Origin: a virus
Strand: one strand, 5' to 3'
IMG/VR virus record: IMGVR_UViG_3300021957_000124
Location: 1 to 37,147 of that record
Length of the DNA: 37,147 nucleotides
Below, one piece after another: positions 19,172 through 36,691 of the stretch. Both the position numbers and the translations under genes were made by a program. The notes beneath the pieces were generated by a model. It saw only the letters and a list, made by a program, of their open reading frames with translations. It was not told the DNA's origin and did not search any database. Within the stretch, counting starts at the first letter, position 1. Each line of letters begins with the position of its first letter.

Positions 19172-19331
19172 AATTTTTTGTGGCATGATGTACGCTGAAT
19201 ACTGCGATGAACATAAGTCAGACACCCAGCAAATGAGATACCTAGAATATACAAAGCTATATAACACGTTTTTAAAAGAGGAGTTTGAAAAAAAAGATGG
19301 ATCAATATCAACAATACATTCACAAGAGTAG
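19146..19331 (+). CDS. Small helical protein before the reductase gene
   Basis: A 61-residue protein (MQDKEKRFEIFCGMMYAEYCDEHK) that overlaps both neighbours. GAGG lies nine bases before ATG 19146. The sequence is amphipathic and mixed, unlike a random shadow frame, and covers an otherwise empty 125 bp. Its last 35 nt overlap the start of the reductase gene. Function unknown. Confidence 0.55.
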   Translation: MQDKEKRFEIFCGMMYAEYCDEHKSDTQQMRYLEYTKLYNTFLKEEFEKKDGSISTIHSQE

Positions 19332-21168
19332 GTACGCACGTTACTTAGATGAGGAAGGACGTAGAGAAACGTGGGCTGAAACAGTCAACCGTTATCTTTC
19401 TTTCTTTGTAGAGCGTAATCAACTAGGTGCTTCAGAAGCCGAAGAGCTTTTTAATGCTATCGCTGATCAAGAAGTAATGCCTTCTATGCGCTGTATGATG
19501 ACAGCAGGGCCAGCCTTACACCGTGATAATGTTGCAGGATTTAACTGCTCTTATCTTCCTATTGACAGTCCCCGCTCTTTTGACGAGCTTATGTATATCT
19601 TGTTGTGTGGTACAGGAGTAGGCTTCAGCGTAGAGCGGGACTACGTAAGCAAACTACCAGAGGTGGCCGACAGCTTCCATGAGACTGACTCCACGGTTGT
19701 AGTGTCTGACAGTAAGGTAGGCTGGGCAAGTGCCTTCAGAGAGCTTATCAGCCTCCTATATGCTGGCAAAATTCCTAAGTGTGACTTGACTAGGGTACGT
19801 CCTGCTGGAGCTAGACTGAAGACCTTTGGTGGCAGAGCCAGTGGACCACAGCCTTTAGCAGACCTGTTTAATTTTACTGTTGATCTGTTTAAAGCTGCTA
19901 CAGGCCGCAAGCTAACGTCACTAGAGTGTCATGACTTAGTATGTAAGATTGCTGACATCGTTGTTGTAGGCGGTGTAAGACGCTCTGCTCTGATCTCACT
20001 GAGTAATGTGACTGACAACCGCATGGCTAACGCTAAGAACGGTGAGTGGTACTTAGGTAACGGTCAACGCGCACTGGCTAACAACAGTGCTGTGTACTCT
20101 GAGAAGCCTGACTTTGATACTTACTCCTCTGAAATGAAGCGTCTGTATGATTCTAAGTCTGGTGAACGTGGTATCTTCAGCCGTATTGCAGCTCAGAAAG
20201 TAGCAGCACGTAACGAACGAAGAGACGCTACTTATAAGTTTGGTACTAATCCTTGCAGCGAAATTATTTTACGACCCTATCAGTTCTGTAATCTATCAGA
20301 AGTTATTGTTAGAGCAGATGATACAGAAGATACCCTTGTAGAAAAGGTGCGGGTTGCTACAATCTTAGGAACGCTTCAATCCACCATGACTGACTTCCGT
20401 TACCTACGTAACATCTGGAAAAAGAACACAGAGGAAGAAGCTCTTCTAGGTGTCTCAATGACAGGCATCATGGACTGCAAGCTAACTAATGGGTCAACGG
20501 GTGAAGAGGCTTTAGGACGGCTCTTAGAGACCCTTAGAGACGTTGCAATACTTACCAACAAGGATTGGGCCAAGAAGCTAGGAGTTAATCAATCAGTTGC
20601 TATCACTTGTGTTAAGCCTTCAGGAACTGTTTCACAGTTGACTGACAGCGCCAGCGGTATTCATCCACGCTTTAGTGAGTATTATATTAGGACTGTACGA
20701 GCTGATAAGAAAGATCCACTTGCTACAGCAATGATTGACAAGGGCTTTCCTCACGAAGAAGACGTAATGAATAACTCTAACTGGGTATTCAGCTTTCCTC
20801 AGAAGGCTCCTAACAAAGCGATAACAGTAGAAAGCATGGGCGCTATGGAGCAGTTAAAGCTTTGGAAGATCTATCAAGATAACTGGTGCGAGCATAAACC
20901 TTCTATGACTTGTTACTATAACGATGATAACTTCTACTCTGTGTGTCAGTGGATCTGGGAAAACTTTGATAGCGTCAGCGGCATTAGCTTTCTTCCTGAA
21001 GCAGAGCACGTATATAAACAAGCTCCGTACCAGAAGATAGCTAAGGATACATATCAAAGGCTTTTAAAAGAAATGCCTAAAGACATGGAGTGGGATATTG
21101 AAGAGCTAGATGATAACACTGAAGGCGCTCAGACACTTGCTTGTGTTGCAGGAGTGTGTGAGATATGA
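19297..21168 (+). CDS. nrdJ: Ribonucleotide reductase, class II (adenosylcobalamin-dependent), monomeric type
   Basis: A 623-residue reductase starting at ATG 19297 (MDQYQQYIHKSRYARYLDE); the open frame extends to a TTG at 19285. The active site is NPCSE (Asn318, Cys320, Glu322). The redox pair is Cys84 (GFNCSYL) and Cys331 (FCNLSEV). The C-terminal thiol shuttle is Cys616-xxxx-Cys621 (CVAGVC). The motifs and order fit the monomeric B12-dependent triphosphate reductase (Lactobacillus leichmannii type, 739 residues), somewhat shortened. It turns ribonucleotides into dNTPs without oxygen or a separate radical subunit, but needs cobalamin from the host. With ThyX it feeds phage DNA synthesis. 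Confidence 0.93.
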   Translation: MDQYQQYIHKSRYARYLDEEGRRETWAETVNRYLSFFVERNQLGASEAEELFNAIADQEVMPSMRCMMTAGPALHRDNVAGFNCSYLPIDSPRSFDELMYILLCGTGVGFSVERDYVSKLPEVADSFHETDSTVVVSDSKVGWASAFRELISLLYAGKIPKCDLTRVRPAGARLKTFGGRASGPQPLADLFNFTVDLFKAATGRKLTSLECHDLVCKIADIVVVGGVRRSALISLSNVTDNRMANAKNGEWYLGNGQRALANNSAVYSEKPDFDTYSSEMKRLYDSKSGERGIFSRIAAQKVAARNERRDATYKFGTNPCSEIILRPYQFCNLSEVIVRADDTEDTLVEKVRVATILGTLQSTMTDFRYLRNIWKKNTEEEALLGVSMTGIMDCKLTNGSTGEEALGRLLETLRDVAILTNKDWAKKLGVNQSVAITCVKPSGTVSQLTDSASGIHPRFSEYYIRTVRADKKDPLATAMIDKGFPHEEDVMNNSNWVFSFPQKAPNKAITVESMGAMEQLKLWKIYQDNWCEHKPSMTCYYNDDNFYSVCQWIWENFDSVSGISFLPEAEHVYKQAPYQKIAKDTYQRLLKEMPKDMEWDIEELDDNTEGAQTLACVAGVCEI

Positions 21169-23338: not shown

Positions 23339-23707
23339 CTAGTAACTCCATACCCAAGGTCTAGGGCGGTTTTCATCCCACTCAAGGTCGTCAAGGTGGA
23401 TAAATCTATTAGCGCCTTTTTGATTAACACCTATACCTGTCATGCCCATGCTTAGTGCAGCTTCTAAGAGCCTGTGGGCTTGGTTGCCAGTAACAGCAAT
23501 ATCTATAGCATGTCCAGAAGCATGTGCTCCGGGTGTCTTCTTCTTGCGCTCTATGATGTGGTCTTTGCAGCGGTAAGCAGATGTAACAGTAAAAGGAAAC
23601 TTTAGTTCATGTCGTAAGGCTTCTACCTTGGTCATAAACTCTTCATCCATGCCTTGCTCACCACAGTGTTGACATTTAAGCTCATCCATGCTAAAATATT
23701 TATACAT
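23339..23707 (-). CDS. Endolysin, M15 peptidase (D-Ala-D-Ala type)
   Basis: A 122-residue peptidase. The zinc ligands follow the M15 pattern: His62 and Asp69 in GAHASGHAIDI, and His104 in RFIHLDD. SAYRC near 43-47 and the KCQHCG start are typical of the M15_3 subgroup. There is no signal peptide, so it needs the adjacent holin to reach the wall. It cuts stem-peptide bonds of peptidoglycan at lysis. The ATG at 23707 overlaps the end of the upstream virion gene by 8 nt. Confidence 0.93.
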   Translation of the reverse strand: MYKYFSMDELKCQHCGEQGMDEEFMTKVEALRHELKFPFTVTSAYRCKDHIIERKKKTPGAHASGHAIDIAVTGNQAHRLLEAALSMGMTGIGVNQKGANRFIHLDDLEWDENRPRPWVWSY

Positions 23708-26700
23708 TATTTAACTTACTCCTTAAAGAGTTTACAACTTTACCACCTCTTTTCTTAGGTGCTCTTACACTCTTAACATTTGCTTGCTTTAATAATAAAG
23801 CATTTAAATCTTTCTTATCTTTTTGAGTTAGTTTAAGTGCATCTAACACATCTTGTATTTCAGCACGTATATCAGAAGTATCTTCTTCAAAGGCATCTTC
23901 GTATTTACCTGCTTCTGTATTAGTTTCTATTTCATCAGGAGTATACTTACGTGCTTTACTAAATTCTTCTCCTCCTACAAGCTCACCTTTTTTATTTATA
24001 AACTCAGGAAACTGTTCTTTTATTTGATCCATGCTCAAGTCATGCTTTTCTTCAAGAAGCGCCTTAGTTTCAAGTTTAATATAGTCTTCAATTTCAGGCT
24101 CTATATCAATAATTCCGGGCATGTCATCAAAACCTTTAAAGTTATAAAGTATTTTTTCAGCCGCTTCTTCAGCTACTTCATCTGAAACATCCCCTTTACT
24201 ATACTCTTTAATAACTTGGCTAAGAGGTTTTGAAATAATCTTTTGTATGCCTTTTGATATAACACCTCCAAAAACATAGCCACCTCTGCCAAAGCCCATG
24301 CGCTGTAGTGGATCTTGACGATCTTCTTGATCAGTAAAAGCTGCACCAGCTTGCTGATTATAAGGTCTACCAGTCACCTTATCTATACGTTGATCAGGCT
24401 CAGTAGGCACATTAGGAACATTTAGAACTTCACCGCCTTTGTTATATGCAGATTTTTTAGGCTCTACTAAAAATTCCTGTACTTCCTGACCAGCTTCATA
24501 AGCTCTTTTACGAATGAATTTTTTCTTATCTTTATTTAAAGCGCCATATCCGGGCGTAAACATTGGAACAAGAGCACCTACATTACCCGCTTGGACTGCG
24601 GATAAAGTCCCGCCTACTATAGGACCAAAACCAGAAGAGGCTGCTGTAAATACATTACCTCTATATGCAGATGAATCTTTAGCCCTGTTAAAAACATCTA
24701 GGTAAAGACCATTCCCGCCCCAACGAGCGGCACCTTCCATATATAAATCCCCAGCACTTTTGTACCGGTACTGATCATCTTGATTAAACATAGAATTACG
24801 AGCATAGTTATTTAACATACCCCCTGCTTGTAAGGCCAGTACAGTACCTACAACTTGTGCAGAAGCCCCTGCGTCCCCCTTAGCTATGTTCCTAGTTGTT
24901 CTTTTTGCTAAATCTTTAAGAACCGTATTAGTAAATGCAGATGGATAAGCAGTTAATTGAAATAGCATAGTTGTAAAAGGATTACCTGATAGGACTTTAG
25001 AGCGTAGCCCAGAAGATTTGTCAGGGTTTAAAATTATTTCGTTAACATATCTTCCTGCGCTCTTATCAAGATCTATCATGAAATCATCTTCTACATTAAC
25101 ATTTCCTTCGGTACGTTTAACCCATGCCAAACCTTTTTTTATATCAACACCTAATTCTAAAAGCTCATCTTGTTTTGTTTTAAGCCTAGGAGTTAAAGTT
25201 TCCCCTTGAGTTTTTGCCAACGCTTTTAAATTATTAGATATAATATCTCTGCCCACATTAAAACTTGTTAACTGAACAGTTTTAGTCCAAGGCTCTAGAA
25301 GATTAACTTTAAAGGCTGCATTATTAAGCTTACGCCAATGCTGAACATTGTCACCACTTAATCTTTCTACTTGATCAGCTACAGATTGATCTAAAGCAAT
25401 TCCAAACCTTTGCATTTTTCTAAATGCTTGTGGCCTAGTAAGGCCGTGATTTTTTACTAAAAGGTCTACTGTATCGTATGTAAGAATTTTAGCCCCTTCT
25501 TTTAAAGCACTTCCAAAATGCTTACTTGTACTTATAATACCACCACGGCTCATGTTCAACATTACTTCAGTTAAACTGCTTAAAGTTGCGAGGGGTAATA
25601 AAGCTATTCGCGTTGCTGTTGTAATAGTATCAATTACAAACCTGCCTTTATCGTTACCAAACTGGCTTACACCTTCTCCTGTTTGAGCAGACCAAACACG
25701 ATATAAATCTTTTTCTACATTTTCAGCTAAATCACCTTCTCCTGCATCCATTAATTCTCGTTGAGCGTCTTTTAAATACAAATCTTTTAAGCCTCTAAAA
25801 TTAGTAGCCCCAAAAGTTTTTTGTTTTGCCATCTGCTTGCTCATAGAATTAAAATAACTTTGCAATACATTGTTAGCATCGTTATCTAAAAACTTTTCAA
25901 ACATGGTGTCATCAGTAATATTTTCAAATTTTCTTTTACTTAAAAAAGAATTTGATAAAGTTCCCTCATCTCCAAAATCATTTTGCTTACTGAGCATACT
26001 TAATACAATATCATCAGCCTCTTGCTCAGTTTCAGCCTCGCCCACTTTTAACAGAAGACTTTTAAATTCTTTTTGATTTGATTTAATAACTTTACGATTC
26101 CAAAGTCTTGGAAAATAATTACCAGAAATTAAATCTGCTTCTTCATAAAGACCTAAATCTTTTAGCTCTTCTGCGGTGTCATCTAACTGCTTCCTAATAT
26201 TTAGAGCAGCCGTGTCTATAACCTCATCTCCTGATAAAGTACCACGAATGGAGCGCGTTAATGCTTGATAAGATTTATCACGTCCTAAAACATTAGTAGC
26301 TTTTAAAATAGGGTCCATAGTTTCTTTATAGCGCACAAAATGCCTACCAAATATATCGCCTAAAGTTTCTGCGTAGTCTTCGCCTTCTAAACTTCGCTCG
26401 CCTAATATGGATCTCTGCTGATCGTATCTAAAATTCTTTTGAAGCTTTGCTACAATAGGAGAGTGTTTAACATAAGGATCTAAGAAAGTAGATACCTTAC
26501 CTCCATACCAAGCAGGAAGTTTTTGCATCCAGTGGCCCGTGTTAACCATTGATTGAGCTATTTTACCTCTAGTAGGAGGCCCCTCACTTCTAAAAATTGT
26601 ATCTACCATTTCTTCAATAGCATCATCACCTAGACCTTCTTTCCTGCCATAAGTGTTTACAACTTTAATAACTTCTTGAGGATCATCTATAACTGAAAAA

Positions 26701-27821
26701 ACCCCCTCAATAAAATCAGAGCCTTCGTCACTAAAACCAAGTCTTTTAGCATCAAAAGAAAGAGCTTCTCTATCTACTAATTCTCCCAATCCATTTTCAG
26801 CTAAATCTCTAGTAGCAACCTCTTCAGGATCAACAGCTCTATTTAAATTATTTTTATCTAAACCTCTAAAAACATAGTCATAAGATCTTTTAAGTTCCTC
26901 GGCTCCTCTAGAAACCCCACCAGCTACAGCCCCTGCCCCTTTCTTAATGCCTTTACCTACCGCACCAAGCCCTACGCCAGCAATAGGACCAACTATAGCC
27001 CCCGCAACTGTAGTAAGACCTGTTTGAAGAAGACTAACCTCTTCCGCGTTACCAACTGCTACGTCTCTTGACTGCACACCATAATCAGCCAGACCTGCCC
27101 AAGCTCCCCCAATAGCTGCTGCCTTAGCGGTTTCTCTAGATGTAGCAAATTGAGCCAGTCTTTCAGTTATTTTTTTCTTAACTCCTTCTTTTGCAAGAAG
27201 TTGAGATGCTGTTTTAGCGGTTGCTGATTGACCACCTGAAAAAGGAATAGCTAGTAAAGAAAGTAAATTAACGGGATCAGTTACTAAATCTGTCCCTACA
27301 TCTGCGCCCCAATTTAACCACTCATGAGCACCTTCCATGTCTGAGTTTTCAAACTTTTGTTTTATATTTCTGTAAGCTCTTAAAACATCTTCAGGGGCAT
27401 TCTCTAATATAGCAGCATTTGAAAATAATGTACCTAATTTATATTCTTCATCTCTTAAAAATTCAACTATATCAGGAGCAAAACCTTTTTGGTTATAATC
27501 TCTTTTTTCTTTAGGAATTTGAGGAGTCATTAAAGCTTGCTGACCTGATAAAACATTTTCTAACACATTTCTATTATCTGAAATATATCTAAAAACTTTA
27601 AGCCCATCAGCTTGAAAATCTTCTTGATTTCTTAGCTCAGTAATCGTATAAGTTTTTGCATCTGGTTGAATAGCAGATGGTTTTTCTTCTTCTTCTTCTT
27701 CTTCTACATAATTATCAGGAAGCTCTGGAGTTTTTACAGCCGTACCTGCTCCTTGAAGAACCTTGAGCCTATAAGCAGGATCTTGTAATTTCTTTATAAA
27801 CTCTGGATCGTATGTAGACAT
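23700..27821 (-). CDS. Large internal virion protein (probable)
   Basis: A 1373-residue protein. The N-terminus is acidic with a run of seven Glu from a TTC microsatellite (about residues 39-46). An Ala/Gly-rich hydrophobic region follows at about 190-300 (including LLAIPFSG and VAGAIVGPIAGVGLGAVG), then long helical stretches. Near 1130-1190 comes NKGGEVLNVPNVPTEPDQ and QDPLQRMGFGRGGYV, and the C-terminus is KKRGGKVVNSLRSKL. Position among late genes, size, and mixed membrane-like and helical parts suit an ejected internal protein comparable to T7 gp16, but no transglycosylase motif is seen. The GGxV pieces recur in other large marine-phage virion proteins. Confidence 0.75.
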   Translation of the reverse strand: MSTYDPEFIKKLQDPAYRLKVLQGAGTAVKTPELPDNYVEEEEEEEKPSAIQPDAKTYTITELRNQEDFQADGLKVFRYISDNRNVLENVLSGQQALMTPQIPKEKRDYNQKGFAPDIVEFLRDEEYKLGTLFSNAAILENAPEDVLRAYRNIKQKFENSDMEGAHEWLNWGADVGTDLVTDPVNLLSLLAIPFSGGQSATAKTASQLLAKEGVKKKITERLAQFATSRETAKAAAIGGAWAGLADYGVQSRDVAVGNAEEVSLLQTGLTTVAGAIVGPIAGVGLGAVGKGIKKGAGAVAGGVSRGAEELKRSYDYVFRGLDKNNLNRAVDPEEVATRDLAENGLGELVDREALSFDAKRLGFSDEGSDFIEGVFSVIDDPQEVIKVVNTYGRKEGLGDDAIEEMVDTIFRSEGPPTRGKIAQSMVNTGHWMQKLPAWYGGKVSTFLDPYVKHSPIVAKLQKNFRYDQQRSILGERSLEGEDYAETLGDIFGRHFVRYKETMDPILKATNVLGRDKSYQALTRSIRGTLSGDEVIDTAALNIRKQLDDTAEELKDLGLYEEADLISGNYFPRLWNRKVIKSNQKEFKSLLLKVGEAETEQEADDIVLSMLSKQNDFGDEGTLSNSFLSKRKFENITDDTMFEKFLDNDANNVLQSYFNSMSKQMAKQKTFGATNFRGLKDLYLKDAQRELMDAGEGDLAENVEKDLYRVWSAQTGEGVSQFGNDKGRFVIDTITTATRIALLPLATLSSLTEVMLNMSRGGIISTSKHFGSALKEGAKILTYDTVDLLVKNHGLTRPQAFRKMQRFGIALDQSVADQVERLSGDNVQHWRKLNNAAFKVNLLEPWTKTVQLTSFNVGRDIISNNLKALAKTQGETLTPRLKTKQDELLELGVDIKKGLAWVKRTEGNVNVEDDFMIDLDKSAGRYVNEIILNPDKSSGLRSKVLSGNPFTTMLFQLTAYPSAFTNTVLKDLAKRTTRNIAKGDAGASAQVVGTVLALQAGGMLNNYARNSMFNQDDQYRYKSAGDLYMEGAARWGGNGLYLDVFNRAKDSSAYRGNVFTAASSGFGPIVGGTLSAVQAGNVGALVPMFTPGYGALNKDKKKFIRKRAYEAGQEVQEFLVEPKKSAYNKGGEVLNVPNVPTEPDQRIDKVTGRPYNQQAGAAFTDQEDRQDPLQRMGFGRGGYVFGGVISKGIQKIISKPLSQVIKEYSKGDVSDEVAEEAAEKILYNFKGFDDMPGIIDIEPEIEDYIKLETKALLEEKHDLSMDQIKEQFPEFINKKGELVGGEEFSKARKYTPDEIETNTEAGKYEDAFEEDTSDIRAEIQDVLDALKLTQKDKKDLNALLLKQANVKSVRAPKKRGGKVVNSLRSKLNNV
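27684..27705 (-). repeat. TTC trinucleotide microsatellite in coding sequence
   Basis: About seven tandem TTC (GAA on the coding strand) encode a poly-Glu run near the N-terminus of the 1373-residue virion protein. Slippage would add or remove whole Glu codons without a frameshift. Confidence 0.8.
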
Positions 27822-27824
27822 AGA

Positions 27825-29555
27825 TTATGACCCCCGTAATTCCGATAATAATGCGAGCTGATGAACAACTACAAAGTTTTCTCTAATACTGTAACCCGGA
27901 GTATCCTTATACTCTTCTTGCATACCTTCGTATCCTTGAAAATTTTCAAGAAAAGCAAGCCTAGCTTTGCTACCAAGCTTAGCAAAATCACCTATAGCCG
28001 ATTTAGTAATAGTATCAAATTGTGTGTCTGAAAGTCTTACCTCATTACCTCGCTGCTCTGATACTTTGTAAAAAGCATCTAAAGCATATACACCAGCAGC
28101 AGCCGAAAAATTAGCAGGGTTTAAAGCTGTGCTAGATTCAAAATCTACTTCGTCAAAATCAGGAGACTCTTCAAATGTATCAATTTCTATTTCCGAGCTT
28201 GAATCTCTAGCTTTAAAGCCCCCTACGTAATTAGCAAAAGCTGCCCCAGCCAGCGCAGAGGCGCTAGAAACTCCTATTTCTGGAAATCTAGATTCTAAAG
28301 CAACTGTATAGCCATGTACTGGCCTTGCAATAAGTTCTTTTTTAGCCGCTACAACATCCGTAGAAGCTCCGTAGCCTCTGCCCATTGTTAAAATAGTTTC
28401 AACTAATTGAGATTCTGCAACTGATTGATCACCATGCCTGCTAGGCATATTCCTAGCAATTGAATTATAAGAATTCATGGCTACACCTATTTGTGAAGGA
28501 GTGGCTTTCATAGACATTTTAGCAGCATCTTGTATTGGTGTATTATTTGTAATGGTACTTATAACTTCCCCAGAACCTAAAGCATGTTCCGTAGTAGTCG
28601 TTGTCATGCTATAGCCCAGCCCCGTGTCAAACTCAGCTGATTTAGAATTAGTTTTTACTATGCCCTTCCCTGAGTTACCTGCTTTTACAAGCTCTTCTGA
28701 TCTTTCATTACCTTGTATAGGGACATACATTCCTACTTTTAAATTAGGTTTAAATGGGTGTGTCTTTTCAACAAAAATTGCTTTAGTAGTTACGCTTTTC
28801 CCGCTGTCTAATTTAATTGTATAATCTTGTTCTTTAGTAGAAGTAGTAATCCAATCATCTTTAGTAACTCTAAAATCATTAATTTTTGTTGCTAAGTTTG
28901 TAATAGCAGCTACAGATGCACTAGCTCCTAATATTTTTTGAGAGTCTTTAATAGCATCTTTATTTAGTTTTCTAGATTTTTGAAGATATTCCATGCGTTC
29001 CCGCCGAATTTCATCGTAGTCTTTACCTGTAAAAAAACCTGTAGTTTTTTCGGAAAACCAATCTAGAACATTTTTAGGCCCTGAATTTTTAGAAAATTCT
29101 TTTTCTAAATCTGCTGCGGATCTAATTTTAAAAGAATTTTCGTATCTTGCATCCATTTCAGGAGTAGCCTTCGCTGCCCAAGCTTCGGCTTCTTTCCAAA
29201 GCAATCCATTTTTACCTTCTTTATATTCTTTTTCATCGTAAGTTCTATTAAAATCAGTTACAAGTTGATTATACCTTTGCGTTGTATAATAACTTTGGGG
29301 GCCTCCTACAGCCTCCATAGCTTTTTCATGGGCCTTCCTAAAAGAAGCAGCTCTATTGTATGTAGCCTCTTGTTGTCTTTTTTCTGCTAAAAAATTTTCG
29401 CTAGTTAAAAAATCATTTGCTTTTTTTTCTAACATTTTATTAGCAAAAATAGTACCTAGACCCGCTACCATTCCTAGCGTTTGATTGCGCTTTTCTTTTT
29501 TTTGTTTTTTTCTACGGCCCGATAACAGGCTTTCACCTAATGATTCAATACCCAT
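27825..29555 (-). CDS. Internal virion protein (probable), 576 residues
   Basis: Starts MGIESLGESLLSGRRKKQKKEK, a short leader and a strongly basic patch, followed by a hydrophobic segment (LGMVAGLGTIFANKML) and helical, charged sequence. The middle (230-350) has beta and Thr/Ser-rich segments; the C-terminal third is Ala-rich and acidic. Three base pairs separate it from the next virion gene. Gene order (this, the 1373-residue protein, lysis) recalls the internal core genes of T7-like phages (gp14-gp15-gp16). No enzymatic motif is seen; the call is from context. Confidence 0.7.
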   Translation of the reverse strand: MGIESLGESLLSGRRKKQKKEKRNQTLGMVAGLGTIFANKMLEKKANDFLTSENFLAEKRQQEATYNRAASFRKAHEKAMEAVGGPQSYYTTQRYNQLVTDFNRTYDEKEYKEGKNGLLWKEAEAWAAKATPEMDARYENSFKIRSAADLEKEFSKNSGPKNVLDWFSEKTTGFFTGKDYDEIRRERMEYLQKSRKLNKDAIKDSQKILGASASVAAITNLATKINDFRVTKDDWITTSTKEQDYTIKLDSGKSVTTKAIFVEKTHPFKPNLKVGMYVPIQGNERSEELVKAGNSGKGIVKTNSKSAEFDTGLGYSMTTTTTEHALGSGEVISTITNNTPIQDAAKMSMKATPSQIGVAMNSYNSIARNMPSRHGDQSVAESQLVETILTMGRGYGASTDVVAAKKELIARPVHGYTVALESRFPEIGVSSASALAGAAFANYVGGFKARDSSSEIEIDTFEESPDFDEVDFESSTALNPANFSAAAGVYALDAFYKVSEQRGNEVRLSDTQFDTITKSAIGDFAKLGSKARLAFLENFQGYEGMQEEYKDTPGYSIRENFVVVHQLALLSELRGS

Positions 29556-29557
29556 AA

Positions 29558-30082
29558 TTAATCTCTCGCTAGTAAACTTTTAGGTTCTGGCATTTCTTCT
29601 ATTTTTTCCTGAATATCTTGTGGTATAACATTGTCAGGAATTTGAGAAGTTTCTTTGGCATTTTTCATCCTATCAAATTTTTCTTTAGCTAACTGTACAC
29701 CCATTACAGAAGGCTCATCTTCTTCTTCGCCACGGTAGATTGTATAATCAATACCAGCTCTTTCTGCCAAGGCCATTAAAATATACGCAGTTGGCTCAAT
29801 GATAAGCATCATTAAATCAGGGTTCCACTTGTTCTGGTTAAAACCTTGAAAGGCTAAAACCTGAACAATATCCATGATAGCACTTCCATCATCAATAGCA
29901 TTCATTAAGCTTACATATGTTTCTTCTTCCGTAACCTTTTCAAAAATAAACTCTGAAGCTTTATGGACAGATGTATATTCAGGAGGCTTACGCCAAGTAG
30001 CTTCTTCTACAGGGACCGTTAACGAAGACCCCGGAATAGGTCTGTCCATTTTAGTTATTACTTTTCTGTATTCTTCATCCAT
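29558..30082 (-). CDS. Conserved late protein of unknown function
   Basis: A 174-residue acidic protein. PIPGSSLTVPVEEATWRKPP, then a helical block (KASEFIFEKV, ETYVSLMNAI, IMDIVQVLAFQGF), then KWNPDLMMLIIEPTAYILMA are segments I recognise from many marine phage genomes, always among virion genes and without known function. The C-terminus is acidic and Pro-rich. Probably a virion or virion-assembly component. Confidence 0.75.
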   Translation of the reverse strand: MDEEYRKVITKMDRPIPGSSLTVPVEEATWRKPPEYTSVHKASEFIFEKVTEEETYVSLMNAIDDGSAIMDIVQVLAFQGFNQNKWNPDLMMLIIEPTAYILMALAERAGIDYTIYRGEEEDEPSVMGVQLAKEKFDRMKNAKETSQIPDNVIPQDIQEKIEEMPEPKSLLARD

Positions 30083-30084
30083 AA

Positions 30085-31137
30085 TTAAGCTGTCCGTGAT
30101 TGCATGAATTGTAAATAAGCAAAAGGATCATAGTTTGAGTAGCCTGATTGATAAGCAGGAGTACCAAACTGCATCCATGAAGTATCTACACCAGCCACTT
30201 GGCGTGTTTGTATGGTAGGAGCGTTGCCAAAGTCTTGTACTTGACCTCGCTGTGGTTGGTAATAATCTTCATCAGTTACTAAGTCTTTACCCTGCTGTGC
30301 TATGTCTATTCCCGACCTTATTGTTCCTAAAGGATCTGCGGAAAAACTTTCTCCTAAACTTGTTTTTGCCTGAGACAAAAGTGAACCCGTTGTTTTTTCA
30401 GAGGGGACTTCCGTAGAAAGATTAGGAAATGTTGCTTTAACCGGGTCTAGATAGCTACTTGTTTTTACAGGCTCAAGGTAATTAGGAAATGGTAATTTTC
30501 CAGACTGATAAGCTTTATCAAAACCCTGTGCGCTAAAGTCCGTACTCATATTAGCGCCTGCTGGAATTACATCTCCCCCAAACTGTGGATTTAACTCACG
30601 CAATGTACTTTCTTTAATACCAACTTCTTTAGAGGCATCTGCAAAAGTAGTGTCTTTACCAAAATTAGTTTGCCCTTTAAAGGGATCAAGAATTTTAGAA
30701 CCTGTATCCATAGTTCTAGACCAAGCACTATCATTACCAAAAAAGTTTGTAGCAGCTCCGTCAATAGTAATACCGGGGATTTTATTCAAGGCTGTTTTAG
30801 CAAAATTACCGACTCCTTCAGTAATAGTACCAAAAACATTTCCTACAGTTCCTGCAAAACTATGAGCTGTTTTTAATACAGTTCCTAAACCTTTAGCTAA
30901 AGCACCTCCTAATCCTGACGTAGCATTAGCAAAATTTAATAGTCCTGCTGAGGCAGTACTTAGTCCATTCATGAGAAAACCAGCCACATGGGGCATGAGA
31001 AAAAACATTCCTATTTGCCCTACAATGCCAAGTTTACCTACAAACTTACCGACTTTACCCACAACTTTTTTAATGCCCCTGCCAATCTTTTTAACAACTT
31101 TCTTAACGCCCTTCCAAAGCTTACTAAAAAATCCCAT
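30085..31137 (-). CDS. Virion protein with cationic amphipathic N-terminus and LysM-like segment
   Basis: A 350-residue protein. Residues 1-37 are a Lys/Gly-rich repeat (FSKLWKGVKKVVKKIGRG and on) that forms a cationic amphipathic helix. Residues 38-115 are Gly/Ala-rich and hydrophobic (GQIGMFFLMPHVAGFLM) and likely membrane-active. Residues 163-198 read like a divergent LysM: TTFADASKEVGIKESTLREL, then NPQFGGDVIPAGANM, suggesting peptidoglycan contact. The C-terminus is Tyr/Gln-rich. Together this suits an ejected protein that crosses the envelope. The LysM assignment is tentative. Confidence 0.7.
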   Translation of the reverse strand: MGFFSKLWKGVKKVVKKIGRGIKKVVGKVGKFVGKLGIVGQIGMFFLMPHVAGFLMNGLSTASAGLLNFANATSGLGGALAKGLGTVLKTAHSFAGTVGNVFGTITEGVGNFAKTALNKIPGITIDGAATNFFGNDSAWSRTMDTGSKILDPFKGQTNFGKDTTFADASKEVGIKESTLRELNPQFGGDVIPAGANMSTDFSAQGFDKAYQSGKLPFPNYLEPVKTSSYLDPVKATFPNLSTEVPSEKTTGSLLSQAKTSLGESFSADPLGTIRSGIDIAQQGKDLVTDEDYYQPQRGQVQDFGNAPTIQTRQVAGVDTSWMQFGTPAYQSGYSNYDPFAYLQFMQSRTA

Positions 31138-31138
31138 C

Positions 31139-34100
31139 CTAAGTTCCTCCCATTGCAGCTATTATTGCAGTAACAATTGAATTTACAGTCCCAGCAGGGC
31201 CTGTGTCACTTTCATTAGCTAAAGCTGTGGCATACAAAGTAGTTCTTCTTTGCTGCTCATTTTCATAACCCTGCCTTAAATAATTTTGTTCATCACTTAA
31301 CTGCTGCCATAACATGTTTTGCTCTGTAGCATTTAACGAAAAAGCTTGTTGAACTGCTAATTGATTTGCAGCATTTTGAGCCGCAGTGTCTATAGTGTTA
31401 GCCTGTCTACGCCACGCAACATTTCCTTGCTCTACTGCCTGTTCATTCGCAGCATTCCATTGCTCTCTTTTAAGTTCATTGTCAGCATTATATTGATCAA
31501 CTTGTGCATTAATCTGAGTATTCATTTTATCAGCTTCTAAAGCATTACCTGCGTCTATAGCAGCCAACCTATTCTTTTCTGAAGCATTGAACTGCGTCAT
31601 GGCGTTAGCCTGTGAAGCATTAAACTGATTCATTGTCTGACCAAGATTAGCCATAAATTGATTTGCTTGCTGCTCAGAGGTAGCATTAAATTGTTTTGAG
31701 GCATTAGTGGCTGCAAAATTAGATAACAAAGTTTGTTGAGCTTGCTGTGAGCTTAACATCGCAGCCTGTTGATCATTATTTAACTCAGCCATATCCATAG
31801 CTAAAAAGTTTCTAGCGTTTTCAATAGACACTTTAGTTAAACTATCAGCCGCTTGTAGATCCATAGAAGCCATTGCAGTAGCATTCTGCATAGCCGCTTG
31901 CTGTTTGTTGTCTAGGTTTTTTATAGTCATTGACTTCATAAATTGACTATTAGCTAATGCCATCTGCTGATTAGCATCAAACTGCTTCATGTCTAAATTA
32001 GCGTCTATTTGAGCATTAAACATAGATGCTTGTTGCTCGTTAGAAAGATTAGTCAAACCCATCTGTTGCGCTAAGTTAGCATTAAGCTGTGCAGCACCCA
32101 TTTTCTTTTCAAACTTTTGAAGCTCTGCAACATTTTCAGCAGTCATAGACTCTGAATCAGCTTTATTAGTTTCAGACAAATTAACTAACCTAATTTTTTC
32201 TTCCATTGAAAGATTAGCAAGGTCTGCCTGTTGAGCAAGTTGCTCGTTCTGAGACATAACAGAAGCAAATGTTTGTAAGTCTGAAAGCCTTCTACTGTTT
32301 TCAGCAGTCATATTAGCTGAATCTGTAGCAGCTTTTTCAGCTAAGTTAGCTAACTCCATTTGCTGCTGGTTAGCCATATTAGCCATGTCCATTTGTTGAG
32401 CCATAGCTGCGTCAGTTTTCTTGAAGTCTACAAGAGTATTTAAATTAGCCAAACGCATTTGCTGATCTGAGGACATGTCAGCTCTATTAGTAGCATTTTT
32501 TTCAGATAATTCTGCTAACTCACTTTTTAGCCTTACATCAAGATTAGCTTTTTCCATGTCTTGATTTAGTTCTGTTTGTCTTATTGTGCGCTGTACCTTA
32601 GCAGTGTACGTTGCAAGCTTTGACTGCTGTTCCGCAGACATGCTATCTGCATCAGCTCTATTAAGAGCTTCAAGATTTGCAAGCTCTATTTGTTGATCAG
32701 CACTGAAAGTTTGAGATATTGCTTGCTGTTTTAGTTCAGCATTCTTAATACCTATAGTCAGCTTACTATTTAAATTAGCTAACTCTGTTTGTTGTTCTGC
32801 GCTTAAATTTTCAGAAGACGCTTGGTTCATGGCCTGTAAGTTAGCAAGCTGTATACGTTCAGCCCCGCTAAAGTTAGCCAACTCTGTCTGCTGTCTAAAC
32901 TCAGTATTCTGAGCCATGTGCTGTGCTGCTGTTTGAAGCTGTGTAAGTTTAAACCTATTAGCTTCAGTAAAGTTTGCACTGTCTGTAGCAGCTTTATCGG
33001 CTAGCTCGGCTATTTCCATTTGCTGTTCATTAGACATATTAGCTAAGTCCATTTGCTGGCTTAACTGAGCATTAGTCTTTTTAAAGTCTACTAAAGTATC
33101 TATTCTTTTTAAACGCATTTGCTGTTCAGAAGACATGTTAGCGCGAGAAGTAGCGTTCTTTTCTGTTAACTCAGATAACTCAATTTTTAACCTAGAGTCT
33201 AAGTTAACTTCTTCCATACGGTTATTAAGCTCAGTTTGCCGTATAGTGGTTTGAACTTTTGCATTATAAGTAGCTAGTCTAGCTTGCTGCTCACCGCTTA
33301 AACTTTCTGAATCAGCTCTGTTACGAGCTTCTAAATTAGCCAGCTCTGTTTGCTGGGCTATTGAAAATGTCTGAGTAATAACTTGCTGACGCTGTTGAGC
33401 GTTTAAAGCTCCTACCTTTAACTTAGCTTCAAGATTAGCAAGGCGTGTCTGTTGAGCAACATTTAAGTTTTCAGATGATGCTTGATTTTTAGAAGATAAA
33501 TCAGCTAACGCAAACTTTTCTTCGTTACTAAAATTAGCAAGCTCTGTCTGTTGTAATAGCTGAGTGTTTTCAGACATAAACTTAGTATAAGTCTGAAGCC
33601 TTGACAACTCTATTTGATTATCTGTACTAAAGTTAGCTGCGTCTGCGGCTGATCTATCAGCTAACTCAGCCATACGCATTTGCTGATCATTAGAAAGATT
33701 TGCTAAATCCATCTGTTGTGCCATAGCAGCATCAGTCTTTTTAAAATCTACAAGAGTATTAAGACGAGTAAGTCTTTCTTGGTTTTCCGCAGTCATTGAC
33801 TCACTAGCTGCTAAATTCTTTTCTCGTAAGTTAGAAAGCTCTACTTGAATATCAGAACTAAGATTTACCTTTTCCATTTCTTGTTGGAATTCAGCTTTTC
33901 TTGTATTACGATTTATTATAGCCTGATATTCTGTTAATTTAGACTGTTGTTCTGCGCTAAGGTTCTGACCTTCTGCTTGATTTAAAGCTTGAAGATTAGC
34001 TAATTCTATCTGCTGTGAAGCGTTTAGATTCTGTACTGCTGCTTGCTGACGTTGTGTAGACTCTTGCTGCGCTCTTTGCTGTGCCATCTGAGCAGTCATC

Positions 34101-36691
34101 ATTCTAGATTCTTGACCCTGTTGAGCACCAGTTATTACCGCTTGTTGACGAAAAGTACCTTGCTGAACGGCCATTTCTTGGGCCATTTGAGCTGTTTGAG
34201 AAGCTGCTGTTTGAGTATTAGCAAGGTTCTGCATACGAACCTGCATAATCTGCTGAGATTCTGCTAGGTTAGCTTGTTGTTCGTTACTAAGGTTTTGCTG
34301 TGCTCGCTGTTGTAGGGCCTGTGCGTTGCTCTGAGCCATAGGTAGAGCACTTTGAATAATAGCATTAAACAAAGCATCACGGCCTACAGTAGACGCTGAC
34401 ATGCCTCTCTGAGCCATCATTTGCTCTATTTGTGCTACAGCCGGTCTAGCCCACGCAGGAGTCTTACCATCCTCCATACCAGCTAAAAGGTTTTCCATTT
34501 GAACAGATACAAGAGCTTCTTGAGGCATAGCAGCAACAGCAGCATTAACCTTTGGATCTGCTCCACTATCTATTTGAGCTTCTACAGTTGCAGGGTCTTC
34601 TGAAACTGCGGCAGTAATTTCAGGAGGAAGTTCTGCAACAACTTCTGCCATATCAGCAGCAGCCATCGTTCTTTCTTGTCCTGTTATAGCTTGCATTTTA
34701 GAAGCTGCGAACGTAGGTACACCATCAATATTTGCAGCGTTGCCTCTGGCTTTTTCACCTAAAATAGCTTCACGGCCTTCTAAATCAGCAGAAGGAGCAT
34801 CACCTAATTCAGTAGCAATTCTTTGAGCTGCTTCACCCGTAGCTGCTTTACGCTGTCCTACTTTTTGAAAGGTTGGTAATTCTTCTAAGTTTGTAGTTTT
34901 AGCAGCAGCATCAGAAATAGGTTGAGCAGTAAAGGTTTTCCTGTCTGCTAAAGCATCTGCCTGTTCTTGTTTTTGCTGTGATGCAGGTTGAGATAAAATT
35001 TGTTTTGCTTGTTCTGCTTCTCTAGTAGCAAACTGTGCTTGACCTACATCTTTTATTGTTTCTTTAGAAGCATCTGGAACAACATCAACTCCTTTATAAC
35101 TAGCTTGTGCTGCGCTATCTGTAGGTGCACCTGTAACTTGACTTGCTTGTCTTTGGGCTGCTGTTCCTGTTTGTTCTTCTCTTTCTCTATCAAGAGTAAA
35201 AGGATCTAATGCATCTGTTTGCTGTGCTTCTGCTTTAGTTTCTAAGTCTTCTGTTATAGCTTCCCTATCTTTAACGCCAGCAGCCTGTTTAGCTACGTCA
35301 GCAGAGGTCATAGTACCAACACCCTCTGAAATAACACCTTCTCTACTTGCGGCTGGTGCAGTTCCTGCGTCTGCTATACTTTCTTTTTCACCAGCAGCTA
35401 CTTTTTGCATTGCATCATAATCAGATACAGCCGCTTCTTCTTTAGGAGCCATTCCTAAATCTTGTGCTCTTCTCCAAGCAAAGTCACCTTTTTGAACTGC
35501 ACGTTCTTTAATTGCAGGAAATCTTTTCATTACTTCATCTACAGGTATTTCTCTACCCGGAGCAATTTTTCTAAGCTCTGCAATTTCTTCTTCTGACATA
35601 ACAGATAAAACTCTTTCTCTTACATCAGGATCATCAGGATTTTGTACAATGTATTCTTCTGTACTTATTATACCATCTGCATATTCTTTTCTTTTAGGTC
35701 TTTTAGCAGCAGGAATAGCCATAGCCTTTTTTTCTTCAGCGGCATCTCGGGCTGGTGCTTTAGCACGTTCAGTAAGAGACGCTTTACCAGCTTCGGCTTT
35801 TGTAAGAACTGCATCACTTTTAGCACCAGTAGCTGTAGCACTGCTTACTATTTGATCGGCTTCGTAAGTAGATGCTGTAGCGGCTTTAGGAGCTCTCATT
35901 GCTGTAAAATTATTAGAGTTGGTGTTTGTTCTTTTATAAAACTCTTCAGGGCTTAACCTTTCAAAGCGAACATCACCCTCAAAACCCCACCCTGCCTTAT
36001 CAATAACATACATGCCTGATTTTTCATCATACGAGTATTCCATCATTTTTTTAGGAGGGTTGCCAAACACTGGCTGTCGCTTCATAGCATCTTGAATAAC
36101 CGCATCATGATCTACAACTTTTTCACCCATAAGGGCAGCTGTTGCTTTGCTAGTTGTAGAGGTTCCTTTTGTAGCAGAAGCCCCTATAGATGCCTTTGTG
36201 CCTACAGCCGTTTCATCGTCTTCAAATTCAGCAAGTTTTGATATGTCTTCGTCTTGAGTTTGAAAACTTTGACCTCCCATAAAAGGGCTTAAATTGTTAT
36301 AACCTGCTTCTAAGGCCATTTGTGCTGGAGTTCTTTCAAAAGTACTTCCATAAGCATTATAAGAGTAGTTACCTGTTTCAGAATCATAAGTAGCGTCTAT
36401 ACTTTTCTGCGCTAATATTTTATCCAGTGCTTTATTATTAAAAGCCACACCAACTTTATCTACTTTATCAGCCGCAACTTTAAAAGGCTCTGGCTGAATT
36501 GCTAAACTATTTTTTGCAGGATCATCAATTTCAACATCGTCTAGCGGGTCAACAACAGGGCCGACCCATCCGGGACTTCCGGGGCCACGACTAGTAGTAG
36601 TATCGGCTGTAGTTTTAGTTGTCTGAGTCTTACCGCCTGTTTTAAACTTTTTACGCTTCAAAGCAGCTAAGGCTTTATTTTTATTGCTCAT
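31139..36691 (-). CDS. Giant virion protein with about 95 tandem 11-residue repeats
   Basis: An 1850-residue protein. Residues 1-110 start with KRKKFKTGGK and are Thr/Pro-rich. Residues 110-780 are Ala/Glu/Gln/Lys-rich and probably disordered or loosely helical. Residues 783-1827 (DNA 31211-34345) divide without a gap into about 95 blocks of 11 residues, best copies QQMDLANLSND, QQTELANFSNE, QQIELANLQAL; positions 5 and 8 are hydrophobic. Eleven residues per three turns gives a straight, nearly untwisted helix. A higher-order 220-residue repeat is visible. It is likely an internal ejection protein or fibre; a T7-type tail-fibre motif is absent. The last 23 residues are hydrophobic (VNSIVTAIIAAMGG). 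Confidence 0.8.
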   Translation of the reverse strand: MSNKNKALAALKRKKFKTGGKTQTTKTTADTTTSRGPGSPGWVGPVVDPLDDVEIDDPAKNSLAIQPEPFKVAADKVDKVGVAFNNKALDKILAQKSIDATYDSETGNYSYNAYGSTFERTPAQMALEAGYNNLSPFMGGQSFQTQDEDISKLAEFEDDETAVGTKASIGASATKGTSTTSKATAALMGEKVVDHDAVIQDAMKRQPVFGNPPKKMMEYSYDEKSGMYVIDKAGWGFEGDVRFERLSPEEFYKRTNTNSNNFTAMRAPKAATASTYEADQIVSSATATGAKSDAVLTKAEAGKASLTERAKAPARDAAEEKKAMAIPAAKRPKRKEYADGIISTEEYIVQNPDDPDVRERVLSVMSEEEIAELRKIAPGREIPVDEVMKRFPAIKERAVQKGDFAWRRAQDLGMAPKEEAAVSDYDAMQKVAAGEKESIADAGTAPAASREGVISEGVGTMTSADVAKQAAGVKDREAITEDLETKAEAQQTDALDPFTLDREREEQTGTAAQRQASQVTGAPTDSAAQASYKGVDVVPDASKETIKDVGQAQFATREAEQAKQILSQPASQQKQEQADALADRKTFTAQPISDAAAKTTNLEELPTFQKVGQRKAATGEAAQRIATELGDAPSADLEGREAILGEKARGNAANIDGVPTFAASKMQAITGQERTMAAADMAEVVAELPPEITAAVSEDPATVEAQIDSGADPKVNAAVAAMPQEALVSVQMENLLAGMEDGKTPAWARPAVAQIEQMMAQRGMSASTVGRDALFNAIIQSALPMAQSNAQALQQRAQQNLSNEQQANLAESQQIMQVRMQNLANTQTAASQTAQMAQEMAVQQGTFRQQAVITGAQQGQESRMMTAQMAQQRAQQESTQRQQAAVQNLNASQQIELANLQALNQAEGQNLSAEQQSKLTEYQAIINRNTRKAEFQQEMEKVNLSSDIQVELSNLREKNLAASESMTAENQERLTRLNTLVDFKKTDAAMAQQMDLANLSNDQQMRMAELADRSAADAANFSTDNQIELSRLQTYTKFMSENTQLLQQTELANFSNEEKFALADLSSKNQASSENLNVAQQTRLANLEAKLKVGALNAQQRQQVITQTFSIAQQTELANLEARNRADSESLSGEQQARLATYNAKVQTTIRQTELNNRMEEVNLDSRLKIELSELTEKNATSRANMSSEQQMRLKRIDTLVDFKKTNAQLSQQMDLANMSNEQQMEIAELADKAATDSANFTEANRFKLTQLQTAAQHMAQNTEFRQQTELANFSGAERIQLANLQAMNQASSENLSAEQQTELANLNSKLTIGIKNAELKQQAISQTFSADQQIELANLEALNRADADSMSAEQQSKLATYTAKVQRTIRQTELNQDMEKANLDVRLKSELAELSEKNATNRADMSSDQQMRLANLNTLVDFKKTDAAMAQQMDMANMANQQQMELANLAEKAATDSANMTAENSRRLSDLQTFASVMSQNEQLAQQADLANLSMEEKIRLVNLSETNKADSESMTAENVAELQKFEKKMGAAQLNANLAQQMGLTNLSNEQQASMFNAQIDANLDMKQFDANQQMALANSQFMKSMTIKNLDNKQQAAMQNATAMASMDLQAADSLTKVSIENARNFLAMDMAELNNDQQAAMLSSQQAQQTLLSNFAATNASKQFNATSEQQANQFMANLGQTMNQFNASQANAMTQFNASEKNRLAAIDAGNALEADKMNTQINAQVDQYNADNELKREQWNAANEQAVEQGNVAWRRQANTIDTAAQNAANQLAVQQAFSLNATEQNMLWQQLSDEQNYLRQGYENEQQRRTTLYATALANESDTGPAGTVNSIVTAIIAAMGGT
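32432..33751 (-). repeat. Two tandem 660 bp super-repeats inside the giant gene
   Basis: Copies 33751-33092 and 33091-32432 each encode exactly 220 residues beginning VDFKKT. A third start at 32431 keeps the register for about 132 residues, and an upstream partial copy covers the last 88. Because 220 is 20 times 11, the hendecad frame continues through every junction. Confidence 0.9.

Follow-up and report, generated by a model that had tools for sequence, protein, structure and literature searches.

The locus described here raises the question of what a phage protein built around a long, unbroken run of 11-residue repeats (hendecads) looks like, how it varies among relatives and what it might be for. 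The sequence analysed, referred to as the window, is the IMG/VR virus record IMGVR_UViG_3300021957_000124 (37,147 bases). The repeat protein (P0001) is the 1850-aa translation of an ORF on the minus strand at 31139..36691, for which no match was found in Pfam, PHROGs, NCBIfam or PDB; a Pfam ferredoxin-like match below the cut-off (E 0.007) was spurious. In the original prediction, about 95 strict hendecads of a phage protein were placed at 34345..31211 (minus strand), corresponding to residues 783-1827; the coordinates are correct, and the protein is indeed that of a phage.

Comparison with 200 shuffles revealed period information at 11 (z = 45.8) and none at 7 (z = -0.1), and the hydrophobic autocorrelation reaches +0.21 at lag 11 with no peak at 7, as anticipated for hendecads. 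The same autocorrelation is +0.31 at lag 22 and +0.43 at lag 55, the identity autocorrelation peaks at lags of 220, 165, 110 and 55, and the lesser period peaks at 5, 10 and 20 result from the 55-residue superperiod. The register is unbroken, in that a cyclic 11-state HMM that was able to change phase chose one segment in one phase, residues 780-1796. When the first 47 hendecads were used to train a PSSM, the second half received +168 bits in the matching phase and no more than -312 bits in any of the other ten, with a shuffle maximum of -231 bits. The shuffles and this half-to-half prediction rule out chance or low complexity as the source of the period, and an assembly artefact is ruled out by the presence of the array in many independent contigs and in isolate genomes. 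The last block, residues 1762-1827 or about six of the hendecads claimed, is off consensus (PSSM window score -49), which lowers the supported number from 95 to ~89-92, the strictness of the repeat being upheld. The consensus first proposed, QQxxLAxLSxx, is corrected to QQ(A/M)(E/D)LAN(L/A)(Q/S)xE, and the earlier description had missed both the 55/110/220 superperiod and the length quantisation described below.

The protein begins with ~690 variable, low-complexity and probably flexible residues (34622..36691, minus strand, as are all features of the protein and its cassette), a part whose length differs among relatives. A conserved border domain follows at residues ~720-790 (34322..34534), recognised in alignment A2 by the motifs PxWA...RGMSxSSxGRDA...SALPMAQ and containing Pro784, which serves as the N-terminal anchor. 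The single-phase array, supported by the HMM, the PSSM and the shuffles, spans residues 780-1796 (31304..34354), with the best support at ~790-1770; Pro makes up 5.0% of residues 1-779 compared with 0.1% of the array, where the single Pro lies in the first hendecad. Within the array, residues 893-1541 (32069..34015) form a superrepeat of 55-residue units, related to one another at lags of 110 and 220 (up to 72% identity at lag 220), and each unit contains five hendecad classes, of which classes 1 and 3 are of the LANL type and class 4 deviates. The motif N/S-[LMF]-[ST]-x-[ED] ends class 2 in 71% of copies and class 5 in 43%. The superrepeat is followed by conserved C-terminal hendecads (residues 1542-1770, 31382..32068; QFNAxxxNAM..., NVAWRR), which are common to the window protein and the HMO-2011, CRP, CHOED and HTVC phages and carry Trp1760, the C-terminal anchor of the array. 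The remaining tail (residues 1797-1850, 31142..31303) is variable and not hendecad.

Leu is found at hendecad positions 5 and 8, and the third position of the 3+4+4 core spacing (position 1) is mostly Q/N; extra hydrophobic residues at position 3 lie on the opposite face from positions 5 and 8. As hydrophobic residues at positions 3, 5 and 8 occupy two helix faces, the hydrophobic Fourier spectrum peaks at 11/4 = 2.75 (power 55), the power at 11/3 being 7.9. Such a distribution would be compatible with a helix that has packing partners on two sides, whether in a bundle or in the wall of a tube. Position 7 is Asn in 56% of hendecads and, for comparison with hendecad barrels, N+Q amounts to 25.3%.

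A tblastn search revealed relatives in 21 phage records, all annotated as hypothetical or unannotated, including Pelagibacter HTVC103P/104P/115P/033P, Puniceispirillum HMO-2011 and the Roseobacter CRP phages, together with Pseudoalteromonas Slicky01, Aeromonas MQM1 and 1233, Vibrio CHOED and Sinorhizobium phiM6. Of the viruses known from the ocean, HMO-2011-type phages are said to be some of the most abundant, and the CRP phages have short tails (PMC6918029). The TerL of the window is nearest to that of HTVC115P (67% identity); the window also encodes an SU10-type portal (PF23899, 886-3060) and a class II (B12-dependent) ribonucleotide reductase (19285-21168). IMG/VR contains at least 35 close loci and many more distant ones. 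A further 12 loci were found in genome contigs; the clear matches lie on phage-like contigs from MAGs and a single-cell genome, whereas the final two hits are weak. The single-cell genome, AG-899-M17 from an uncultured marine alphaproteobacterium (L136), carries a relative of the array protein and is a possible direct link to a host.

To compare array lengths, D was defined as the span between two conserved anchors, the Pro of SALPMAQ that precedes the array and the Trp of NVAWRR close to the array end, and was measured in 100 non-redundant proteins (no more than 85% identical at equal length) drawn from at least 219 loci with both anchors. Among the matches listed, D equals 8 mod 11 in 99 of the 100 relatives over a range of 162-976 residues, taking 18 distinct values (162, 173, 184, 228, 235, 239, 250, 283, 305, 316, 415, 426, 448, 536, 646, 756, 866 and 976). 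The window protein has the largest of these; the array of locus L002 is longer (1127 residues compared with 1017 in the window) and has no Trp anchor. The sole exception to the rule, L084, has a 4-residue deletion, equivalent to one helical turn, near the N-terminal end of its array. As controls, the lengths of the tails beyond the Trp in the same proteins, and those of the whole proteins, cover all residues mod 11. In alignments, gaps between distant subfamilies are 11, 22 or 33 residues, whereas in MAFFT alignments within the clade of the window they are exactly 110 or 220 and nothing else; the length step in this clade is exactly 110 residues, or ten repeats. The array thus remains in phase while its length changes by whole hendecads and, within the clade, by 110-residue blocks.

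A tree of the flanks requires D to have changed at least 36 times, with one change breaking the 11-residue rule; the tree came from a short search and has many weak forks, so the number is approximate. Recent changes between close relatives demonstrate that copy number changes fast: the window protein has 330 residues more than that of L007 with flanks 97% identical, and L002/L006 and L003/L004 differ by 220 and 110 residues, respectively, with flanks 93-95% identical. These pairs, together with the number of changes, constitute a natural experiment in which the effect of array length can be asked directly. An alternative explanation of the length rule would be purely mutational, with unequal recombination of 33-bp or 330-bp repeats producing it and structure being irrelevant, and recent 110- and 220-residue duplications do occur (up to 91% identity at lag 220 in L002, which contains a 220-residue repeat). 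We consider this explanation very improbable, however, as the tail lengths reveal that ordinary small indels occur beside the array, and most repeats are too diverged for slippage (16-38% identity) and yet 99 of 100 arrays in the matches listed are in phase. Moreover, what the lone exception lost was one turn of helix. The strict length rule suggests instead a structural ruler or conduit, probably one concerned with delivering DNA into the cell.

Two AlphaFold2 models were used to investigate the structure of the array. That of residues 893-1332 (32696..34015), based on 29 in-register rows for 440 residues, is confident (pLDDT 87.3, pTM 0.59) and comprises eight 55-residue units, each a helix of ~16 residues, a turn, a kinked helix of ~29 residues and a turn of ~4, such that the helix is broken every 22 and 33 residues. 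The turns fall on the N-[LMF]-[ST]-x-[ED] hendecads of classes 2 and 5. The second model, of residues 700-1850 (1151 aa), is of low confidence (pLDDT 54); it contains only helices and no strands, breaks at the same sites as the first, and includes a single 110-residue helix at residues 1673-1782, near the C terminus. A β-solenoid, hinted at by the 11/4 harmonic, an Asn ladder and the likeness of LANLS to pentapeptide repeats, was rejected on the grounds that both models are strand-free.

The array is therefore predicted with good confidence to be helical and, as a monomer, folded in 55-residue helix-turn-helix units. The hairpins in these models are favoured by the confident model, by the coincidence of breaks in the two models, by the N-cap-like residues at these sites and by the placement of proline: only 5 prolines occur in 31,174 residues of relatives, and all five, which lie past the array start, follow the class-5 [N-L-S/G/A] motif at the N1 position. 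It had originally been proposed that residues 783-1827 might form either one continuous helix of 1045 residues (~157 nm) or antiparallel bundles making a rod or channel wall. The models lend no support to the former and are nearer to the latter, and the structure prediction of the monomer bears out the all-helical character but not the continuity beyond the 110-residue helix of the low-confidence model. Nonetheless, a continuous helix in some state is still favoured by the near-absence of proline and of loop indels (one array excepted), and the modelled hairpins leave room for it, as prolines are so scarce and as spurious bends in long coiled coils, together with poor handling of hendecads, have been reported for AlphaFold (PMC11676326).

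The protein could alternatively be an external fibre, whisker or stalk. Its hendecads would then pair in parallel as a homo-oligomeric coiled coil, reaching ~146 nm at most and holding a receptor-binding or head-whisker part off the virion. Such an assembly would resemble the stalk of tetrabrachion, a long hendecad run, mentioned in PMC11676326, to which the repeat array can be likened. The spacing of L5, L8 and Q/N1, which would correspond to the canonical 3+4+4, the near-absence of proline and of loop indels along the whole array, the possibility of spurious bending just mentioned and the tail-fibre genes located directly upstream in HMO-2011 and the CRP phages are all in keeping with a fibre. 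We nevertheless regard a fibre as rather unlikely: beyond the array the C terminus is short, stays conserved as far as the Trp anchor and offers nothing like a variable receptor-binding domain, the confident monomer model interrupts the helix at regular intervals, and the other genes of its cassette resemble those for ejection or lysin proteins.

This cassette ends the structural operon, after the tail genes and before a strand switch, and consists of the repeat protein followed by proteins of ~350 aa, ~180 aa (acidic), ~550 aa and ~1200 aa (lysin-like), in an order identical in 126 loci among the matches listed and in podophage isolates. In the window, the 350-aa protein (30085..31137) has a Lys-rich amphipathic N terminus followed by a hydrophobic stretch (MGFFSKLWKGVKKVVKKIGRGIKKVVG...); it starts with MGFFSKLWKGVKKVVKKIGRGIKKV, a start kept in many relatives (MGFFS/MGLFS/MGFLS/MGIFS), and homologues were found in 73 of the 126 loci listed. 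PHROG tape-measure matches to this protein (E 3e-6) were discounted as low-complexity and helical. Its homologue in L012 contains a long GTAAA-type low-complexity insert after the hydrophobic segment. In HTVC115P the Lys-rich protein is replaced by a 417-aa gene product, and between its gene and that of the repeat protein sits HTVC115P_gp46 (L037:15870-16319), annotated as a toxin-activating lysine-acyltransferase (HlyC-like), which might acylate the 417-aa protein for membrane insertion.

The most conserved neighbour is the acidic protein of 174 aa (29558..30082; RPIPGxSLT...WNPDLM), present in 115 of the 126 loci listed and confined to the same phage group and the Rhizobium phages RHph_N3_13, N3_19 and I3_11, in which tblastn found no equivalent of the array protein. 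The 576-aa protein (27825..29555) has no family match, and the last gene encodes a virion-type protein of 1373 aa (23700..27821) matching PHROG 7348 'endolysin' and PHROG 6958 'virion structural'. Sequence matches are fewer for the ~550-aa and ~1200-aa proteins than for the earlier ones, and, despite its conserved place, the 1373-aa protein was matched by none of 50,697 phage records in a tblastn search, from which it follows that it is evolving very fast.

As the gene heads this conserved five-gene cassette, the repeat protein most likely acts in ejection. In podophages, whose tails are too short for the purpose, a conduit is formed by internal proteins that are kept in the head and then ejected (PMC8954989, PMC11440229). 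The matches of the last cassette gene to lysis and virion PHROGs, and the resemblance in place to T7 13-14-15-16, argue for such a role. With moderate confidence, we consider the repeat protein an all-alpha internal ejection (pilot) protein of an HMO-2011/HTVC115P-type short-tailed marine phage; no virion proteomics of these phages, including the repeat protein, was found in the openly accessible literature. The protein would travel in the head and leave ahead of the DNA, and several copies would then line or extend a conduit through the envelope, their Gln/Asn side chains being exposed like those of the phiX174 H tube. How long or thick the conduit is would depend on the number of blocks, the strict 11-residue rule would keep adjacent helices aligned along their hydrophobic stripes, and the ~350-aa protein of the cassette would be the membrane-active component.

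With 162-250 residues, or 24-38 nm when extended, the short members of the family would be the right size for a tube that spans the envelope. At 976 × 1.5 Å (~146 nm), the longest would far exceed any envelope, so a simple periplasm-spanning tube fails for the long members, which would fit only if folded into hairpins or if they thicken or extend the conduit. A more specific form of the ejection role, which we think distinctly unlikely, is a spring-loaded ruler: the 55-residue units would be helical hairpins while in the head, their in-phase, proline-avoiding turns would straighten upon ejection, and several copies would zip together as an unbroken, right-handed barrel of hendecads reaching the same ~146 nm at most, its length set genetically by the gain or loss of 110-residue cassettes. 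The protein could alternatively remain in the head or neck as an internal ruler or core organiser, setting, like a tape measure, the size of the core or the spacing of ejection proteins. Its modular length steps recall siphophage tape-measure proteins; podophages, however, have no long tail to measure, the array has none of the Trp/Phe markers of tape-measure 11-mers, and a 330-residue change with almost identical flanks implies no tight link between array length and the other parts of the virion, making this alternative unlikely.

Profile searches of the PDB with the repeat protein family found nothing, and a Foldseek search of the model against the PDB gave no match (best E 0.28); with its 55-residue helix-turn-helix units, the model may resemble the tandem helical hairpins of α-solenoid repeat proteins. 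The sole strong structural match, BFVD A0A218MLQ0 (uncultured virus, 1277 aa; E 2.6e-15, 36% identity over 386 columns, TM 0.52), is clearly a family member, yet it is itself uncharacterised and no function is gained from it; two Mimivirus proteins in BFVD were also hit (E 2e-4, TM <0.2). Hendecad proteins and 11-mer repeats in phages are already known, and the openly accessible literature yielded no account of this family or of length quantisation as strict as that seen here.

Like the array, the tape-measure proteins of siphophages can carry 11-residue repeats, the phase of which matters for infectivity in TP901-1 (PMC5099701). The tape measures of TP901-1 and p2 share with it modular helical 11-residue repeats and a length that varies by repeats (PMC5099701), but in them Trp/Phe mark the repeats, units of 11 and 18 residues are mixed and there is a long tail to measure, compared with strictly 11-residue QQxELANLS repeats in a podophage. 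A search for these markers failed, Trp occurring only near the C terminus and Phe marking nothing, and the isolates are short-tailed. Families of all-hendecad coiled coils, in the survey of Martinez-Goikoetxea and Lupas 2023 as cited in PMC11676326, resemble the repeat protein, as far as that citation describes them, in their long hendecad runs and in being difficult for AlphaFold; the present family is itself a hard test case for the prediction of hendecad structures.

T7 gp14/gp15/gp16 and P22 gp7/gp20/gp16 are similar in gene-order place, in being largely helical and in having a large lysin-like last gene. Pairwise hhalign comparison of the repeat protein with T7 gp14/gp15 and P22 gp7/gp20 gave probabilities below 1%, and P22 gp7, gp20 and gp16, unlike the repeat protein, have no clear 11-residue period. 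The phiX174 H protein is a DNA pilot that forms a decameric α-helical tube from residues 151-271, lined with Gln/Asn/Arg and containing hendecads such as QKEIAEMQNET (PMC7354561). It differs in belonging to a tailless ssDNA phage rather than a short-tailed one and in having three hendecads followed by heptads rather than ~90 hendecads. It has no similarity to the repeat protein by hhalign, and in the absence of profile similarity to the T7, P22 and phiX174 proteins the repeat protein is not classed with any of them. In motif likeness, the whole of H exceeds 500 shuffles, whereas the value of the tube region alone is reached by 259 of 1000. Unrelated by homology and with weak motif statistics, H may still be taken, by analogy, as the nearest described parallel, in that both proteins are Gln/Asn-rich and share QxE(L/I)Ax(L/M)Q hendecads, with QKEIAEMQNET in H resembling QMELANLQxxx in the array.
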